DNA of 41,354 nt from Deltaproteobacteria bacterium. Lineage in GTDB: Bacteria > Desulfobacterota > Syntrophia > Syntrophales > UBA2210. The position numbers and the translations under genes were made by a program. The stretch lies in the NCBI GenBank assembly GCA_016930775.1, contig JAFGGB010000159.1, positions 1 to 41,354 of the forward strand, given 5' to 3'. Below, piece after piece: positions 179 through 38,608 of the stretch. Under the pieces are notes generated by a model. It searched no databases, was not told the DNA's origin, and saw nothing but the letters and a program-made list of their open reading frames with translations. How positions within the stretch are numbered: position 1 is the stretch's first letter; each line of letters begins with the position of its first letter.

Positions 179-210
179 TGTAACCTGCGGGTCTGTTATT
201 CGTTATAAGG
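179..210 (+). promoter_or_regulatory. Candidate ECF-sigma promoter P1, TGTAACC-N15-CGTTATAAGG
   Basis: TGTAACC 179-185, 15-nt spacer, CGTT 201-204; same motif and spacing recurs at 2635-2660. Confidence 0.6.
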
Positions 211-216
211 GTATCG

Positions 217-687
217 ATGGACGCTTTCGGGACCTTCTACCAGAGTCATCGGGAACGATTGTACGGTTATCTTGTCCGTCTGTCCGGCGATCCCGAACTT
301 GCCCGCGATCTCGTTCAGGACAGCTTCATCCGCTACATGAGCGCCTACGACAAGGAGGTTCCCGCCGCGCCGCTGCTGTATACAATAGCCCGGAACGCCT
401 TTATCGATCATGTGCGAAAGAAGCGAATGGACCATCGGGAAATCGACCAGGAGACTGCGGCAGGCCCCGAACGGTCTCTTCTCGTCCGGGAAGAATATCG
501 GCTGGTTATCAAGGCGTTGCAGCGCCTCGATTCCGACGAGAGGGATATTTTAAGCCTCGCCGTGAGCAGCGGATTGTCCTACCGGGAGATCGCCTCGGTA
601 ACCGGCCTGTCCGAGATGAACGTTAAGGTCAAGGTTCACCGGGCGCGGCAGAAACTTAGGCAGCTTTTAGGGGAGATGCACCAATGA
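217..687 (+). CDS. RNA polymerase sigma factor, sigma-70 family, ECF type
   Basis: Region 2 (FYQSHRERLYGYLVRLSGDPELARDLVQDSFIRYM) and region 4 HTH (LDSDERDILSLAVSSGLSYREIASVTGLSEMNVKVKVHRARQKLRQLL). Confidence 0.93.
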   Translation: MDAFGTFYQSHRERLYGYLVRLSGDPELARDLVQDSFIRYMSAYDKEVPAAPLLYTIARNAFIDHVRKKRMDHREIDQETAAGPERSLLVREEYRLVIKALQRLDSDERDILSLAVSSGLSYREIASVTGLSEMNVKVKVHRARQKLRQLLGEMHQ

Positions 688-1253
688 AGAATGGTCTTAT
701 CAGTCTCTATATTGACGACGAAATGGATCTCGAAGAGAAGGTTCGTTTTGTTGAAACCATAAGGGCCGACGGAGACTTTGCCGGAGAATGCCTGGCCCTT
801 CTGCATCAGGAACAGCTTCTCGGGGGGACCGTAACGGAGGCGCCTGTTTTCATGCCGCTGCCGGAACCGAAGAAGCGATGGAATCGTTTCTTCCCGGCAC
901 GGGCAATCGGCTGGGCTTCGGCGGCGACCCTGGCTGCGGTTCTTATTGTCGTTCTTCTTCCCTTTCGTCAACCCGTTACGACGGCGGCGGTTGAGCATCG
1001 CTTTATTGTGTATCAACCGGAGGCAAAGAACGTTGAGATCATGGGAACTTTTACCGGATGGAAACGGATTTCTCTCGCTAAAAGCGGCTCGGGCGGCTAC
1101 TGGGAAATAACGCTCCCCCTTTCTCCGGCGGAGCATCGATTCTCTTATGTTGCGGACGGAACGGAACGTTTTGCCGATCCGACTGTCCAAGCGAGGGAAC
1201 GCGACGACTACGGCAGCGTCAACTCCGTCATAACGGTGGAGCACAGGGCGTGA
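684..1253 (+). CDS. Anti-sigma-factor-like membrane protein with C-terminal glycogen-binding (CBM48/AMPK1-type) domain
   Basis: ATGA overlap with sigma gene; N-terminal short helical region, one TM segment (AIGWASAATLAAVLIVVLLPF), then VEIMGTFTGWKRISLAKSGSGGYWEITLPLSPAEHRFSYVADGTERFADP. Confidence 0.8.
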   Translation: MKNGLISLYIDDEMDLEEKVRFVETIRADGDFAGECLALLHQEQLLGGTVTEAPVFMPLPEPKKRWNRFFPARAIGWASAATLAAVLIVVLLPFRQPVTTAAVEHRFIVYQPEAKNVEIMGTFTGWKRISLAKSGSGGYWEITLPLSPAEHRFSYVADGTERFADPTVQARERDDYGSVNSVITVEHRA

Positions 1254-1576
1254 AGCGTTCGCCTGCACTGTGGATCATTGTCATTATTGCGTTTGCGGCC
1301 GCGGGTTGCGCATCTCATTACCATCGCGAGAGGGAGGGTCGGCTGATGCTGTACCTTAAGATGCCGGAGGCCAAAAGCGTTCTTTTCGCCTGTTCACTGG
1401 ACAGGTTCACGCCGCGGAAAGCCGCTTTGAGGGACTCATTCTGGGAAGTTGACGTTCCGGCCGGTCGATCCTTTTCCTATTTCTACATTGTAGATGGCGA
1501 GATCTATACGCCGCCATGCTCGCAGAAGGAACGGGACGATTTCGGCTCTCTCAACTGCTTGTACACGGGGCAATAA
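1250..1576 (+). CDS. Lipoprotein with degenerate CBM48-like domain
   Basis: GTGA overlap with previous gene; lipobox AAGC; SFWEVDVPAGRSFSYFYIVDGEIYTPPCSQKERDDFGSLNCLY parallels the C-terminus of the preceding protein. Confidence 0.75.
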   Translation: MKRSPALWIIVIIAFAAAGCASHYHREREGRLMLYLKMPEAKSVLFACSLDRFTPRKAALRDSFWEVDVPAGRSFSYFYIVDGEIYTPPCSQKERDDFGSLNCLYTGQ

Positions 1577-1631
1577 GCTCCGGCAGAACATGCCGATGTC
1601 TTTATTATAGAAGGTTTCGGGGGAAAAAGAG

Positions 1632-2570
1632 ATGAAACGCTTCGCAATCATTATGGCCTTTGTCCTACTGACTGCCGCTCTTGCGCAGGCCGGCGACTCC
1701 GGCACACAGCCGGGCGGTCTCTCGCCGGAGACAGAGGAGGGAATGCAAACCCTGACAGCCGCCGGAATTTCCGCAGATGAAGCTGCGGCGGTTACGAAAG
1801 CCATGAACTCGGCGGGTTTTGCCGTCGGTACGACAAAAAACATACAGCGGGCATTATCGTCGGCATCGCGAACCGGATTCCCCTCGGCGCCGTTCATCGA
1901 TAAAGTCTTCGAAGGCATTGCCAAGGGCGTGACGGGAGAACAGGTTCTCGCCGCCGTCGAGCGCGTCCATAACCGTTTCGAAATCAGCCTTCGGGAAGCG
2001 AAACGGCTCAGTCCCGAGAAGAATCAGGTAAAATCTTATGGAACGATTATCGCCGAATCCCTCCAGGCCGGAATCATCGAGAAAGACCTCGTGTCCGTCA
2101 TGGACGAACTGGTGGAACAGGCATCGAAACAAAAACGGGGAGAAATGACGGCGCTCGCAACAGAGACGCTTCAAACGCTTCGGGACACGGCGCGGCTGCA
2201 GGTTGATTCTTTCGAGGCCGCCGCCATCGTGAAGAGCGCACTGCAACATTCCTTTACATCGGTCGAGATGAAGGAACTGCGGCACAGCATACTTTCCCAG
2301 GCGCGATTCGGCGATCCCCCGTCGATTGCACGACAGTACCGCGACGACATCAAAGAGGGCCGGCAACCCGGGGGCAGAGGATCCCGGGGTCTCTCCGGAG
2401 GGGCGCCCGGCAGTCCCGGCGGGCCTGGCGGGGGGAGCTCCGGCGGAGATTCGGGTAGCGGCTCGGGCGGTGGGAGCTCCGGCGGAAATTCGGGTAGCGG
2501 CTCGGGCGGCGGAAACGCCGGGGGCGGTTCGGGAAACGGTTCGGGCGGCGGAGGGGGAGGCCGCAAGTAG
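1632..2570 (+). CDS. Secreted helical protein with Gly/Ser-rich low-complexity C-terminal tail
   Basis: Signal peptide MKRFAIIMAFVLLTAALAQAG; tail GGAPGSPGGPGGGSSGGDSGSGSGGG... Confidence 0.85.
   Translation: MKRFAIIMAFVLLTAALAQAGDSGTQPGGLSPETEEGMQTLTAAGISADEAAAVTKAMNSAGFAVGTTKNIQRALSSASRTGFPSAPFIDKVFEGIAKGVTGEQVLAAVERVHNRFEISLREAKRLSPEKNQVKSYGTIIAESLQAGIIEKDLVSVMDELVEQASKQKRGEMTALATETLQTLRDTARLQVDSFEAAAIVKSALQHSFTSVEMKELRHSILSQARFGDPPSIARQYRDDIKEGRQPGGRGSRGLSGGAPGSPGGPGGGSSGGDSGSGSGGGSSGGNSGSGSGGGNAGGGSGNGSGGGGGGRK
2433..2510 (+). repeat. Two tandem 39-bp units inside the Gly-rich coding tail
   Basis: gggagctccggcggagattcgggtagcggctcgggcggt (2433-2471) and gggagctccggcggaaattcgggtagcggctcgggcggc (2472-2510). 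Confidence 0.9.
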
Positions 2571-2594
2571 ACATCCAGGCATATCCAATACAGA

Positions 2595-2626
2595 GGGCGG
2601 ACGTTTTTCAGTTCCGCCCTTTTTTA
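2595..2626 (+). terminator. Rho-independent terminator
   Basis: GGGCGGA-loop-TCCGCCC followed by TTTTTT. Confidence 0.85.
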
Positions 2627-2634
2627 ATTTATTC

Positions 2635-2667
2635 TGTAACCATTGTCATGGCGGCACGTTTATACGG
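2635..2667 (+). promoter_or_regulatory. Candidate ECF-sigma promoter P2, TGTAACC-N15-CGTTTATACGG
   Basis: TGTAACC 2635-2641, 15-nt spacer, CGTT 2657-2660; identical boxes and spacing to P1; just after a terminator and upstream of a start codon. Confidence 0.6.
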
Positions 2668-2712: not shown

Positions 2713-3207
2713 ATGAAAAAAAAGATGCTTCTTTTAGCAACAGTTCTTTTCGTGAGCCTTACGCCCCTTGCCCTCATGGCGGGAGAAGGCTTCGGCCTCG
2801 GCGACGGCACGGGCCCGCTCCATGAGATCATCGGAGAATTCGAATGGACCGGCACGGTCGTCGAATACCTGAGTTACGGGGGAGGAATGGTCATCGCTGC
2901 AACCGACGGCGATGTCGCCGTCTATGGGCTTGGACCCATTCCCTACTGGAAAACTCAGGGCATAGAACGACCCGATGTTGGGGAAAACGTAACCGTCTGG
3001 GGACTCGCCGTGGAGATAAACGGAGAGACTCGGAATATACTCACATCGATTCTCGTTGAAGGCGAGGATGAAGCGCTCCAACTGAGAGACACAGAAACGG
3101 GAAAACCTCTCTGGCGTCCCTTCAGGCTGCACCAACCTCCTGTCGTCGGACCGCCGGCCACTCCTCCCAGCGGCTTCGGTTCCGGCTTTCAACGCAACGG
3201 CCGATAG
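2713..3207 (+). CDS. Secreted protein of unknown function
   Basis: ATG at 2713 after aaggag RBS; signal peptide MKKKMLLLATVLFVSLTPLALMAGEG; the ORF-track start at 2326 is an upstream extension. Confidence 0.85.
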   Translation: MKKKMLLLATVLFVSLTPLALMAGEGFGLGDGTGPLHEIIGEFEWTGTVVEYLSYGGGMVIAATDGDVAVYGLGPIPYWKTQGIERPDVGENVTVWGLAVEINGETRNILTSILVEGEDEALQLRDTETGKPLWRPFRLHQPPVVGPPATPPSGFGSGFQRNGR

Positions 3208-3485: not shown

Positions 3486-3532
3486 ATCGTGACACTATTG
3501 CGTTGACACGTTTTTCGAAATCGTGTTACAAA
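3486..3532 (+). promoter_or_regulatory. Candidate promoter with overlapping operator half-sites upstream of cbiM
   Basis: -35 TTGACA 3503-3508 and -10 TACAAA 3527-3532 (18-nt spacer); half-sites GTGACAC 3489-3495, TTGACAC 3503-3509, GTGTTAC 3523-3529. Confidence 0.5.
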
Positions 3533-3576
3533 ATCTCCCTCACGATGCCCGTTGCAACGGAAGGAGCAGTTCAATC

Positions 3577-4629
3577 ATGCACATGGCCGATGCCCTTATC
3601 TCCCCTGCTGTTGGCGGCGCACTATGGACTGCCACCGCAGGACTGACCGCCTGGTCTGCAAAGAAATTAAACGAAGATTTCGATGACCGAAAGGTTCCTC
3701 TCATGGGCGCTCTGGGCGCCTTCGTTTTCGCCGCCCAAATGATCAATTTTACGATTCCTGCAACCGGTTCAAGCGGCCACCTCGGCGGCGGCATGGCATT
3801 GGCCGTCCTCCTGGGACCCTATGCGGCCTTTCTCACCATGGCTTCGATTCTGACAATACAATCACTTTTTTTTGCGGACGGCGGACTGCTGGCATTGGGA
3901 TGCAACATTTTCAATCTCGGATTTTTCCCCTGCTTTATCGCCTATCCCTTGATATATAAAAAAATCGCAGGAGAAAACCCCTCTGCCGGAAAGATATTTG
4001 CGGGGGCAACTCTCGCATCTCTCGCGGGGTTGCAGTTAGGCGCCTTCGGCGTCGTTGTGGAAACGGTCGCCTCGGGCATCAGCGATCTGCCCTTTTCCAC
4101 CTTCCTGCTCCTCATGCAGCCCATTCACGGCGCCATCGGCATCGTAGAAGGGCTGGTTACCGCTGCCGTGATAACTTTTGTCTGGAAAGCTCGTCCCGAG
4201 GTATTGCTGCTGGCGGAAAAAAGCTCCGCCGAAGGATTCTCCATAAAAGCCGTCTTTGTAGGTCTGATCGCGGCCGCCGTCATAACCGGCGGCATATTCT
4301 CATGGTTTGCCTCCGTTCATCCCGACGGGCTCGAATGGGCGCTGTTCCATGCATCCGGCAAAGAGGAATTCAGGAATCCTGAAGAGAGCGCCCATTCACT
4401 GCTGGCAGGCATCCAGGAAAAAACGGCTGTAATGCCCGATTACGGATTCAAAAACAGTCGAACCGTTCAAGAAGACGCAACGGCCTCAGAAGAACAGTGG
4501 CCGGCAGTAAGCATCGGCACATCGACAGCCGGAATCGTCGGAGGCGGATTGACCCTGTTTTTTGCGGGACTTGTCGGTTTTCTCCTGAGGCTCATCGGAC
4601 GGTCGAGGCAGGCCTCGCCTGGGAGATAA
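3577..4629 (+). CDS. cbiM: Energy-coupling-factor cobalt/nickel transporter substrate-binding subunit, CbiM/NikM with fused C-terminal PDGLE (NikN-like) domain
   Basis: MHMADALISPAVGG N-terminus (His2 supports ATG at 3577); multiple TM segments; VHPDGLEWA motif then final TM. Confidence 0.9.
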   Translation: MHMADALISPAVGGALWTATAGLTAWSAKKLNEDFDDRKVPLMGALGAFVFAAQMINFTIPATGSSGHLGGGMALAVLLGPYAAFLTMASILTIQSLFFADGGLLALGCNIFNLGFFPCFIAYPLIYKKIAGENPSAGKIFAGATLASLAGLQLGAFGVVVETVASGISDLPFSTFLLLMQPIHGAIGIVEGLVTAAVITFVWKARPEVLLLAEKSSAEGFSIKAVFVGLIAAAVITGGIFSWFASVHPDGLEWALFHASGKEEFRNPEESAHSLLAGIQEKTAVMPDYGFKNSRTVQEDATASEEQWPAVSIGTSTAGIVGGGLTLFFAGLVGFLLRLIGRSRQASPGR

Positions 4630-4661
4630 CGGCCTTGCCTGTTCTCCTCAAGAGGTGTGGA

Positions 4662-5504
4662 ATGAAGGGGATGCCGCCGGAGACATGCGGAATGTCGCGG
4701 CTTGATTCGGCCGTTGGTTCCATGAAAGATCAAGACCGTCCTGCAGGGCGCGAAAGGACTGTCCGCTGCATTGACCCCCGGGCCATGCTTATCACGACGT
4801 TCATTTATATCGCCGTTGTGACTTCTTTTGAAAAATTCGACCTTCTCGGTCTCCTGCCCCTGGTCATTTACCCCCTGTTCATCATGGAACTGAACAACCT
4901 TTCCCCCGGCGCCATCGGCAGGAAACTCCTCTATGTTTCACCTTGTGCGCTCATGATCGGCATATTCAACCCTCTCTTCGACAACCGGGTCGTTTTACAC
5001 CTCGGATCTCTGGCTGTTTCGGGCGGCTGGATCTCCTTTACGGTTCTCATGGTCAAGTTTGTTCTGACGGCGAGCGCCGCGCTTATCCTGGCAGCAATCT
5101 GCGGATTCGACACTCTCTGCGTCGCTCTCGAGAAACTGAAAATGCCAAAGGTCTTTGTCTCGCAGCTGCTCTTCATGCACCGCTACATTTTCCTCACGGC
5201 CGACGAAGCGTCCCGAATGGTTCGAGCCCATTCCGTGCGATCCTTTCGCCGCAAAGGAATGAAAATCAAGGTATTTGGTTCTCTCTGCGGGCAGCTGCTC
5301 CTTCGAACTCTCGACAGGGCGCTTCGCATACGCCATGCCATGGTTTCCCGGGGCTTCAGAGGGGACGTGCCTCTCATCCGGGAGCTGAAAGCGGGGAAAG
5401 GGGACACGGCCTTTGTCTTCTTATGGACCGCTTTTTTCATTATCGCCCGCTGTTTCAATCTCCCGCAATTGCTCGGCGCATTCGTCATGGACAAATTCGC
5501 ATGA
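4662..5504 (+). CDS. cbiQ: Cobalt/nickel ECF transporter transmembrane subunit CbiQ/NikQ
   Basis: CbiQ-like TM and coupling region (RMVRAHSVRSFRRKGMKIKVFGSLCGQLLLRTLDRALRIRHAMVSRGFRG); exact start uncertain. Confidence 0.88.
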   Translation: MKGMPPETCGMSRLDSAVGSMKDQDRPAGRERTVRCIDPRAMLITTFIYIAVVTSFEKFDLLGLLPLVIYPLFIMELNNLSPGAIGRKLLYVSPCALMIGIFNPLFDNRVVLHLGSLAVSGGWISFTVLMVKFVLTASAALILAAICGFDTLCVALEKLKMPKVFVSQLLFMHRYIFLTADEASRMVRAHSVRSFRRKGMKIKVFGSLCGQLLLRTLDRALRIRHAMVSRGFRGDVPLIRELKAGKGDTAFVFLWTAFFIIARCFNLPQLLGAFVMDKFA

Positions 5505-6247
5505 GTCACCATATCGTTGAGGTCAAAGATCTTGAATATGTTTACCCCGACGGGACTCCGGCATTGAAGGACCTCTCGTTCACGATCCTCCACGGCGAGT
5601 CCGTGGGACTGGTGGGCGCCAACGGCGCCGGGAAGTCCACCCTCCTGCTCCACCTGAACGGATGCCTTTTCCCGCAGAGCGGCACTGTCAGGATCGGTCA
5701 CTTCCCCATTACCAGGAAAAATATCAACGATGTGCGGCGACGGGTAGGCATGGTCTTTCAGGATCCCGACGATCAGCTTTTCATGCCGCGGGTCTTCGAT
5801 GATGTGGCCTTCGGACCCTTGAACCTTGGAATGCCCCGCGAAGAAGTGAAAAGCCGCGTCATCGAGGCGCTGCGCCTCGTGAGCGCAGAACACCTGGCAT
5901 ATCGTCCGCCCTATAAGATCTCCGGCGGAGAAAAGCGCGCCGCTGCCATTGCCACCGTTCTCTCAATGTCGCCCGATCTGCTTGTCCTGGACGAACCGAG
6001 CTCCGGCCTCGATCCCAAGTCGCGGCGGCAGCTCATAGGACTGCTGAAAAACTTCAACCACACAAAGATCATCGCCACCCACGACCTGGACCTCGTTATG
6101 GATCTCTGCGAGCGCACTATTGTCATCAACGCCGGCCGGGTCACGGCCGACGGTCCCACCATGAAAATCTTCCGTAATGAAGCTCTTTTGGAGGCCAATC
6201 GCCTGGAAAAGCCTCTCCGCATGCAAGGCTGCCCGGCAGATCACTAA
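5501..6247 (+). CDS. cbiO: Cobalt/nickel ECF transporter ATP-binding subunit CbiO/NikO
   Basis: Walker A GANGAGKST, signature ISGGEKR, Walker B LLVLDEPSSGLD; ATGA overlap with cbiQ. Confidence 0.95.
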   Translation: MSHHIVEVKDLEYVYPDGTPALKDLSFTILHGESVGLVGANGAGKSTLLLHLNGCLFPQSGTVRIGHFPITRKNINDVRRRVGMVFQDPDDQLFMPRVFDDVAFGPLNLGMPREEVKSRVIEALRLVSAEHLAYRPPYKISGGEKRAAAIATVLSMSPDLLVLDEPSSGLDPKSRRQLIGLLKNFNHTKIIATHDLDLVMDLCERTIVINAGRVTADGPTMKIFRNEALLEANRLEKPLRMQGCPADH

Positions 6248-13592: not shown

Positions 13593-15155
13593 ATGGACAA
13601 CAAGATCAAACGCGTTCTCATCAGTGTAACCGATAAAAAAGGCATAGTTGATTTAGCGCGGGAACTGAAATCTTTCGGCGTCGAAATTCTTTCCACCGGA
13701 GGAACGGCAGCTCTGATCAAGGCGGCTGGGGTTGCCGTCACCGATGTTGCCGACTATACGGGCTTTCCCGAAATGATGGACGGGAGACTCAAGACCCTCC
13801 ATCCGAAAATCCACGGTGGACTTCTAGCTCTCAGGGATCATAAAGAACATATGTACGCTTTGGCTCGTCACGGCATAGAGCCGATCGACATGGCGGTCAT
13901 CAACCTTTACCGGTTTGAAGACACCGTAGCCAAGGAAGGATGCACGCTGGAACAGGCCATCGAAAACATCGATATCGGAGGCCCCACGATGCTCAGGGCA
14001 GCGGCAAAAAATTATCGCTTCGTCAGCGTCGTCATGGACCCGGCGGATTACTCCCGGATCATAGAGGAAATGAAGAAGCGAAACGGCGCCGTCTCGGAGG
14101 AGACGAATTTTGCCCTTGCTGTAAAGGTCTTCCAGCTTACGGCCCGCTATGACGGCGCCATTTCAAATTATCTCGGGCGACTCCTGCCCGATGGCGGCAT
14201 GAAGGAATTCCCCGACACTGTAACGATGCAGTTCGATAAGGCGCAGGATCTCCGGTACGGTGAAAATCCTCACCAGCAGGCCGTTTTCTACCGGGAAAAG
14301 ACCGCAGCAGCGTCTCTCCCGAATGCCCGGCAGCTCCAGGGCAAGGAACTCTCCTATAACAACATTATGGACGGCGACGCCGCCTGGTCCATGGTCTGCG
14401 AGTTCGACGAGCCGGCGGTCGTCATCATGAAACACGCAAATCCCTGCGGAGCGGCCACCGCCCGGGCGAGCATCAAAGAGGCGTACCTGAAAGCCCTGGC
14501 TACGGACCCGCTATCTGCTTTCGGCGGAATCGTGAGTTTCAACCGGAACGTCGATAAGGAAACGGCCGAAGAAATGGCAAAAATTTTCCTGGAGGTCATC
14601 ATCGCTCCGGGTTTCGATGAAGCGGCAAAAAAAATTCTTGCCGAGAAGAAAAACGTCCGTCTTCTCGAGATGCCGTCCCTCCTGAAGACGAGTCCGCGGG
14701 ATTACGATTTCAGACGGGTGGTCGGCGGTCTGCTCGTCCAGGAACGGGATGCGGAAATCGACGATATTCGAAGCGCTGCAGCGGTGACCAAGCGGAAGCC
14801 CACCGAGGAGGAATACCAGGCCCTGAGCTTCGCCTGGAAAGTTGTGAAAAACGTCAAATCAAATGCCATTGTCCTGGCCTCAAAGGACCAGCTCGTGGCT
14901 GTCGGCGCCGGCCAGATGAGCCGCATTGATTCGGTGAAAATATCGAAGATGAAGGCGAACATGCCGACAGAGGGCACTGTTCTTGCCTCGGATGCTTTCT
15001 TTCCCTTCCGGGACAGCGTCGACCTTGCGGCGCAGGCGGGCGTAACGGCAATCATCCAGCCGGGCGGTTCCATTCGCGACGAAGAATCGATCCAGGCAGC
15101 CGACGAACATAACATCGCCATGATCTTTACAGGCAGGAGACACTTCAAACATTAA
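13593..15155 (+). CDS. purH: Bifunctional AICAR formyltransferase / IMP cyclohydrolase
   Basis: [60 protein letters not shown]-terminal FTGRRHFKH. Confidence 0.97.
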
Positions 15156-36856: not shown

Positions 36857-38608
36857 TTACAAATCGGGATCAACGGCGCCGATTCCGGCATAGCACGTCC
36901 CCCCGACAGCTTCAGTGTCGTAGTATAAAGCAAAAGAGGCAATGCCTTGCGCTGCATCTAGCGTGACGCTTCCGCTGCCCCTGTCATTTCCCGGAATAAT
37001 CCTTGACAGCTCATAGGCTTCACTTCCCATAGCGGCTAAGGTTACGCTATCGGCGCCTATGATGCTGCCGTCAGTTCCAAAACAGGTGAGTGACACTGTA
37101 ACCGCCGTAGAATTGGGGTTGCAAAGACAAATCATCGTGTCCCATCCGCCTCCTGCCGGATAACGAATTTGAGCCATATGGGGAACGATAAGCCTGGTGC
37201 ATAAAGCGCCGATCAGCGATATATCGGCCATGATGACAGGATACGCTGCGGCGTCCAGGCGCCCAATCCAGGCGAGTCCAGATAATTTTTGCGTGGAGCT
37301 CACGAGAACCCATCCCTCGTTGATTTTCGGCGACAGCACCGCAGCCCATTGCCCCCGAGCCCCTATTGCAAAGGGCGCCACATCTTGAGCCTTGGAACCG
37401 TCTGGATTGTAAACGGTGATTGTTACCGTGGCCGGGAGGATCTGGCTGGCATTGCGCAGTGCAAGGCTCGAATAATAGTCTCCATCGCTTCGATAATAGG
37501 GCAAATAATAGTCATAGGAACCACGAAGGCTTGTTTCGCTGACTGAGGCGCTGATGCCAGCGTAACAAGTGCCGCTTGCCGCCTCCCTATCTGAATAGAG
37601 TGCAAACGCGGCAACACCAGGCGTAACGGCGATGACGACACTGCCTCCCTCTCGATCGTTCTGAGGGAACATGTCATCGAGTCCGTAGGCGATGCTCCCT
37701 TTCATAGGAATCTCAAGGATAACGGGACTCCCAACGGTTCCTTCCGGACTGACGTAGGTAAGACTCACCGTCGATGCCACTGAATTGGGATTGCATATAC
37801 AGACCGTGGTGTCCCATCCCCCGCCGGCTTGATATCGCTTCTGGGCCACATGCGGCACCGTGAGCGCACTGGAAAGAGTGCCAATAAGTCCTATATCGGC
37901 CATTATAGTCGGCCAGCCTCCCTCAAGCTGCCCCACCCAGGCAAGACCCGTGAGCTTCCTGGTAGAGTTCACATGAACCCATCCTCCCGTGATTTTCGGC
38001 AACAGCACCGCTGCCCACTGGCCAGCTGCTGCAAGAGTGAAAGGACTCACTGTCTGAGCGACTGAGCCGTTTTGGTTATAAACAATGATCGTCACCGTTG
38101 CGGTCTCTGCATCGCTTGAATTCCGGAGGGCAAGGCTGGAATAATATTCTCCGTCGCCTCTATAATAGGGAACATAATAATTGTAAGCTCCAGATAAACT
38201 GGTTCCTCCCTGAAGATTTACGGAAAAGGAGCACGTCGTGCTGCCAAGACTGCAACTGTACGTGTAAGACCCCGCGCCGGAATCGCCGGGAGGGTTCAGC
38301 GTCCATACGTATGTCTCAGATTCCTCGGCATTGCTGTGAGTCGCCGTATAGACGGCGCCGGCTATAGTGCCGCTCACTGATTCCTCACCGTCCATAATCA
38401 TGGTAAAGCTGTCTCCGGACTGAGTAATCTCTACAGTCCCTGAATCGGCAACCCACTCGGGCCGTACGGGAGAGCATCCTCCGGTCGTATAGCTCCACGT
38501 GCCCGTTGCATCATATGTCGCCGCCCCGGCACTTCCCATAGCGATCAATAGGAGAGCCACGAGCGCCACGACAATGGCGAAAGCGTGCATGAAGTCCTCG
38601 CGTTTCAT
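36857..38608 (-). CDS. Secreted protein with two tandem ~220-aa homologous domains
   Basis: Signal peptide, then N-terminal region; AYNYYVPYYRGDGEYYSSLALRNSS... repeated as SYDYYLPYYRSDGDYYSSLALRNAS... Confidence 0.88.
   Translation of the reverse strand: MKREDFMHAFAIVVALVALLLIAMGSAGAATYDATGTWSYTTGGCSPVRPEWVADSGTVEITQSGDSFTMIMDGEESVSGTIAGAVYTATHSNAEESETYVWTLNPPGDSGAGSYTYSCSLGSTTCSFSVNLQGGTSLSGAYNYYVPYYRGDGEYYSSLALRNSSDAETATVTIIVYNQNGSVAQTVSPFTLAAAGQWAAVLLPKITGGWVHVNSTRKLTGLAWVGQLEGGWPTIMADIGLIGTLSSALTVPHVAQKRYQAGGGWDTTVCICNPNSVASTVSLTYVSPEGTVGSPVILEIPMKGSIAYGLDDMFPQNDREGGSVVIAVTPGVAAFALYSDREAASGTCYAGISASVSETSLRGSYDYYLPYYRSDGDYYSSLALRNASQILPATVTITVYNPDGSKAQDVAPFAIGARGQWAAVLSPKINEGWVLVSSTQKLSGLAWIGRLDAAAYPVIMADISLIGALCTRLIVPHMAQIRYPAGGGWDTMICLCNPNSTAVTVSLTCFGTDGSIIGADSVTLAAMGSEAYELSRIIPGNDRGSGSVTLDAAQGIASFALYYDTEAVGGTCYAGIGAVDPDL

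Follow-up and report, generated by a model that had tools for sequence, protein, structure and literature searches.

The window, i.e., the whole stretch of 41,354 nt analyzed here, carries two copies of the bipartite motif TGTAACC-N15-CGTT which are, very probably, promoters for the stress-type ECF sigma factor whose gene occupies positions 217–687. As judged from the sequence, the first copy would autoregulate the sigma operon, and the second would drive a downstream gene for a secreted protein, in the following named gene 5.

Two Candidate ECF Promoters in the Window

Both copies lie on the forward strand and are exact matches. Promoter 1 (179–204; TGTAACC-tgcgggtctgttatt-CGTT) consists of a -35 box TGTAACC at 179–185, a spacer of 15 nt, and a -10 box CGTT at 201–204. 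In promoter 2 (2635–2660; TGTAACC-attgtcatggcggca-CGTT), the boxes are located at 2635–2641 and 2657–2660, again 15 nt apart. A preliminary description of this DNA had pointed out the identical pair at 179 and 2635, and its coordinates and both spacers are exact. Unpaired TGTAACC copies, which it placed at about 13626 and 37085, do exist, but at 13625–13631 and 37097–37103. When spacers of 14–17 nt are allowed, the whole window contains no TGTAACC/CGTT pair besides these two; under the same setting, the shuffled window contains 0.04 copies on average and never two.

Promoter 2 sits in the short intergenic region between gene 4 and gene 5, just past an intrinsic terminator (about 2594–2627, forward strand) and 52 nt before an ATG led by a Shine-Dalgarno (SD) sequence. 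Both neighbors had been described before: the terminator is borne out by its RNA fold (-17.4 kcal/mol, z -5.1) and by the T run behind it, and the ATG at 2713 is present, with AAGGAG in front of it. An Rfam scan of the window found no RNA family.

Motif Frequency in Whole Genomes

The preliminary description had proposed a genome-wide enrichment check. Run on the window's own 3.12-Mb genome with the N14–17 pattern, it returned five matches versus six for a reversed control, i.e., background only, and relying on it would have misled. As these numbers show, a single-genome count cannot settle the question, and own-genome counting was rejected as an uninformative test. Of the three matches outside the window's pair, two are situated within coding sequence and one, upstream of a glycosyltransferase-like ORF, has a 16-nt spacer; all three were rejected as targets. 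The contigs carrying the other four above-cut-off Sigma70_r4_2 matches of this genome contain no motif. What is notable is the distance of only 2.4 kb between the two copies, not the total count. That exact matches in the rest of the genome stay at background level would reflect a small, mostly local regulon.

Genomes that carry the sigma factor show 16 motif matches versus 4 controls, and 12 of the 16 are located at the sigma operon. In 93 genomes without it, 45 matches versus 69 controls again represent background. By chance, about 0.5 exact matches are expected per genome.

Conservation of Motif, Spacing and Placement

Among 100 related genomes, six others encode a full-length anti-sigma factor, and the operon's gene order is common to all seven genomes; a scan of genome contigs with the sigma factor only gave no match. 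All six relatives possess TGTAAC[C/G]-N15-CGTT before the sigma gene and a second copy downstream. In G059, which belongs to another family, this second copy (L034:6156) precedes an orthologue of gene 5 (L034:6211-6804, E 5e-28), as it does in the window, while the flanks of the promoter region have diverged. It is the only relative in which a promoter-bearing gene 5 orthologue was found. In the other five relatives, the second copy is located at the junction of genes 3 and 4, where it would drive gene 4 and where its -35 box incorporates the stop codon (TAA) of gene 3. G059 retains a remnant at this junction, TGTGACC-N15-CGTT; the window has lost the copy. Regulon membership, as read from the placement of the motif, shifts between lineages, with the second copy before gene 4 in five relatives and before gene 5 in the window and G059.

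For a broader comparison, a search with an anti-sigma alignment provided 114 relatives, 80 of which were kept, all from named Desulfobacterota or Deferribacterota genomes. The window plus three more loci complete a set of 84 loci (0.77 Mb) having the anti-sigma gene in common. Cultured carriers include Desulfosarcina widdelii, D. alkanivorans, and Desulfogranum japonicum. TGTAACn-N15-CGTT occurs on the operon strand in 77 of these loci, adding up to 126 matches on this strand and 13 on the opposite one. Operon-strand matches with spacers of 12, 13, 14, 16, 17, and 18 nt number 0, 0, 0, 0, 0, and 1, respectively. Upstream of the sigma gene, the motif, and with it the AAC-type -35 and CGT-type -10 boxes by which an ECF-type target promoter would be recognized, was found in 72 of the 84 loci, whereas 0.003 matches would be expected by chance in this sigma-proximal placement. 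Where an exact upstream copy is missing, most of the examined loci show, in the same place, a version that deviates at one or two bases. A copy downstream of the start of the anti-sigma gene is present in 50 of the 84 loci. Inter-locus identity is at random level both in the flanks (0.276) and in the spacer core (0.273), and therefore shared descent of the region does not explain the motif. The extended consensus reads TGTAACC-TTT, then CGTT-ATA (TGTAACCTTT ... CGTTATA). With its fixed spacing and placement, the motif appears to mark a genuine regulon that has apparently not been described before.

Proteins of another kind could likewise bind a fixed bipartite sequence whose spacing is conserved, and our comparison demonstrates conservation, not the identity of the reading protein. 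Still, an operator bound by a DNA-binding regulator, or a site used jointly with such a regulator, is in our view an extremely improbable alternative to an ECF promoter. An AAC-type -35 box combined with a CGT-type -10 box is the textbook ECF promoter (PMC8103513). Moreover, the motif is non-palindromic and oriented, precedes the sigma start by 10–12 nt with a Y-A signal 8 nt on, and accompanies this very ECF operon in the 77 loci given above.

Along this line, promoter 1 is supported as the autoregulatory promoter of the sigma operon, as had been claimed, by its recurrence upstream of the sigma gene and the near-matches in most other loci examined. Direct membership of gene 5 in the regulon, through promoter 2, had likewise been claimed and gains support from the promoter–gene 5 pair kept in a different family and from the intervening terminator. 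If promoter 1 were real and promoter 2 a chance look-alike, gene 5 would be transcribed otherwise. The chance rate of exact matches and the absence of gene 5 near the operon in most relatives fit such a coincidence, which we nevertheless consider highly unlikely: the pair recurs in G059 between diverged flanks, promoter 2 lies in intergenic DNA directly behind a terminator at a short distance from an SD-led ATG, and a second local copy is common among the 84 loci.

Sigma Factor Gene and Predicted Transcription Start

The sigma gene (217–687, forward strand) encodes a protein of 156 aa with the Pfam domains Sigma70_r2 (residues 7-70, 1.3e-14) and Sigma70_r4_2 (residues 96-147, 1.5e-14), both above curated cut-offs. 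The NCBIfam model sigma70-ECF (TIGR02937) reaches 95 bits at a cut-off of 42.9; the best NCBIfam model, the SigM subfamily (TIGR02950), scores 112.4 bits, below its curated cut-off of 147.95. The sigma stop overlaps the anti-sigma start at 684–687, and 217–687 together with 684–1253 qualifies as a pair of ECF (group IV) sigma factor and anti-sigma factor under each definition open to testing.

Eight positions behind CGTT, motif copies that do not precede the sigma gene have an A in 84%, and a C or T stands before it in 85%, a signature typical of transcription starts. The eighth base after the CGTT of promoter 1 is A213 (forward strand), the putative transcription start, which leaves a leader of 4 nt to the ATG at 217. 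Of 52 proximal sites, 49 have the sigma start codon 10–12 nt behind CGTT, and SD-like sequences are found at 4 of 49 sigma starts compared to 62 of 76 other targets. Given this spacing and the rarity of SD sequences, the sigma mRNA should be nearly leaderless, with a leader of 2–4 nt, a layout absent from the preliminary description. With a start at A213, an SD sequence would be impossible in the window's sigma mRNA.

Alternatively, the sigma factor might be translated from a longer, SD-bearing transcript of an upstream promoter, the spacing of 11 nt being incidental. A second, basal promoter further upstream is conceivable, as sigE of M. tuberculosis has two kinds of promoter: one is of the housekeeping type, the other depends on SigE and yields a leaderless mRNA (PMC10027907). 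However, the 10–12 nt spacing is kept in 49 of 52 loci in spite of their divergence, and SD-like sequences are as scarce as stated, which makes this alternative unlikely. The sigE case also provides a precedent in principle for the nearly leaderless sigma mRNA that we prefer. Its conservation as a layout across the Desulfobacterota is, as far as we found, new.

Anti-Sigma Factor and Lipoprotein

The membrane anti-sigma factor (684–1253, forward strand; 189 aa) comprises an N-terminal three-helix domain, one TM helix (~72-91), and an outer domain resembling the glycogen-binding domain of AMPK beta (CBM48). The Pfam model AMPK1_CBM matches with 3e-12 and 47 bits (cut-off 26.8). In the AlphaFold2 model (pLDDT 80.5), helices span residues 2-10, 16-26, and 30-47; a further helix at 72-91, assigned as TM by its composition, is followed by a beta-sandwich. 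A Foldseek comparison of the outer domain with the AMPK beta glycogen-binding domain yields E 2e-8 and an rmsd of 1.5 A.

Class I anti-sigma factors such as RseA, RsiW, and RskA consist of a three-helix domain, a TM helix, and a C-terminal sensor, and versions without zinc are known (PMC7406223). The modeled protein displays this layout and is a putative sigma binder. The Hx3Cx2C zinc motif is absent from an alignment of 18 anti-sigma sequences, and the Pfam model zf-HC2 attains only E 0.022.

At the positions which we take to be the sugar-contact residues of AMPK beta, the first Trp (W126) is invariant and the Asn is conserved, while the position of the second stacking Trp is mostly non-aromatic in the same alignment. 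A glycan ligand of the outer domain is plausible from these residues; since the second sugar-stacking Trp is not kept, a glycan signal is uncertain.

Gene 3 (1250–1576, forward strand) encodes a small lipoprotein with an invariant G-C in a lipobox-like site and a divergent CBM48-like domain. This domain resembles that of the anti-sigma factor, which as a query matches 1337–1567 with E 3e-4. No Pfam or NCBIfam family scores above cut-off for genes 3, 4, and 5.

Members of the Putative Regulon

Gene 4 (1632–2570, forward strand) encodes a secreted protein with a Gly/Ser-rich C-terminus. Its position is conserved in related operons, and in other lineages it has its own promoter copy. Gene 5 (2713–3207, forward strand) encodes a secreted protein of 164 aa, composed of a signal peptide, a GEGFGLGDGTG stretch, and an OB-fold-like domain; its leader, counted from the predicted start, would be about 43 nt long and include the AAGGAG. 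AlphaFold2 predicts a beta-beta-beta-alpha-beta-beta core at low overall confidence, and Foldseek returns weak OB-fold matches, E. coli YgiW among them. Gene 5 may belong to the GPGDGTG-type set described below, carrying an OB-like domain in addition.

Distant relatives of gene 5 with an OB-like domain and an LGPxWY motif are present in L031, L032, L033, and L109:8496-8951. No Pfam model matches the members scanned, and viral contigs scanned for gene 5 relatives contained none. No promoter motif occurs near the relatives in L031-L033; the gene 5 family is thus wider than the regulon. Behind gene 5, positions 3523–6247 of the window carry genes that by eye resemble a cobalt/nickel-type energy-coupling ABC transporter (CbiM-, CbiQ-, and CbiO-like), and no Rfam riboswitch was found in the window.

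Extra motif copies occur also on the opposite strand and far away from the operon; they stand before gene 4 homologues, before short secreted proteins rich in GNGxGPGDGTG repeats, and before proteins with Gly/Ala/Pro repeats. Gene 4 and the glycine-rich targets have SD-bearing leaders. Further candidate targets are a cytochrome b561-PepSY protein and genes adjoining CCP_MauG di-haem peroxidases and DUF2202 proteins. Eleven loci (L072, L080, L082, L090, L094, L097, L099, L115, L129, L147, and L149) feature divergent copies facing away from the sigma operon, on the minus strand about 550–690 nt before the anti-sigma gene; in 9 of the 11, a secreted GPGDGTG-type gene comes next.

CCP_MauG di-haem cytochrome c peroxidases are encoded directly behind a promoter copy or beside a promoter-driven GPGDGTG protein in L117, L131, and L133, there upstream of the sigma operon, and in L190. 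They may modify the glycine-rich secreted proteins or act with them. DUF2202 ferritin-like proteins are found near motif-driven genes in some species (L089:2760-3311, L132:7196-7933). A perfect distal copy, TGTAACCTTT...TACGTT, is located in G005:C29:6661 (L201:262-287) ahead of an SD-led gene for a secreted peptide of 56 aa that contains GEGGKNHGEVGTGETSTG and is too short for many gene callers.

Model and Comparison with Known Systems

In the regulatory model that we propose as the most likely one, which follows the classical scheme, the membrane anti-sigma factor would sequester the sigma factor in the resting state. The sigma factor would be set free when the AMPK-beta-like domain, perhaps together with the CBM48-like lipoprotein, senses a signal from outside the inner membrane. 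The freed sigma factor would then transcribe its own operon of sigma, anti-sigma, lipoprotein, and gene 4 in a positive feedback loop, from an mRNA starting 2–4 nt before the sigma start codon and translated without an SD sequence. It would also turn on a limited number of secreted proteins, most of them rich in glycine; in the window, gene 5 would be made from promoter 2, separated from the operon by the terminator.

More tentatively, and as a possibility rather than an expectation, Desulfobacterota and Deferribacterota could share an ECF system that has not been described before. Its outer AMPK-beta-like glycan sensor would control a dedicated GPGDGTG secretome by way of a leaderless, self-amplifying sigma mRNA, and some species would add MauG-type di-haem peroxidases and DUF2202 ferritin-like proteins. 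Nothing in the literature searched combines an AMPK-beta-like sensor, a strictly 15-nt promoter, a nearly leaderless sigma mRNA, and a glycine-rich secretome; the promoter motif may already be tabulated in the main ECF classification.

An observation of two sites is hereby extended to a putative regulon with a sharp, testable promoter code, a 15-nt spacer without tolerance, in lineages whose sigma factors have seldom been studied by experiment. It also gives access to families of uncharacterized secreted glycine-rich proteins and to an anti-sigma factor that has the fold of a eukaryotic-style glycogen sensor. The data suggest an almost leaderless sigma mRNA beside targets with ordinary leaders; if this is true, sigma translation would depend on conditions favoring leaderless initiation.

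SigX, SigM, and SigW of B. subtilis use TGTAAC or TGAAAC -35 boxes and CGT-type -10 boxes with spacers of 16–17 nt, and are autoregulated with a membrane anti-sigma factor. The system described here is alike in its box types, putative autoregulation, and membrane anti-sigma factor; it differs in the strict spacer of 15 nt, the glycine-rich secreted regulon, and a sigma factor scoring below the SigM cut-off.

With the class I anti-sigma factors RseA, RsiW, and RskA (PMC7406223), our anti-sigma factor has the N-terminal three-helix domain, the TM helix, and the C-terminal sensor in common, whereas its outer sensor is a domain of the AMPK-beta/CBM48 type; a literature search for this pairing returned no paper. 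The domain shares the fold of the AMPK beta glycogen-binding domain (PDB 1z0n, 1z0m; rmsd about 1.5–1.8 A) as well as the first Trp and the Asn. In contrast to AMPK beta, the second stacking position is mostly non-aromatic, and the domain resides outside the membrane on an anti-sigma factor.

Promoter P2 of M. tuberculosis sigE (PMC10027907) is a parallel in layout, as both systems have a leaderless or nearly leaderless sigma mRNA whose synthesis depends on the sigma factor itself, here by prediction. However, sigE P2 belongs to an actinobacterium, where it is accompanied by further promoters and requires MprAB, while the layout reported here is conserved across the Desulfobacterota.
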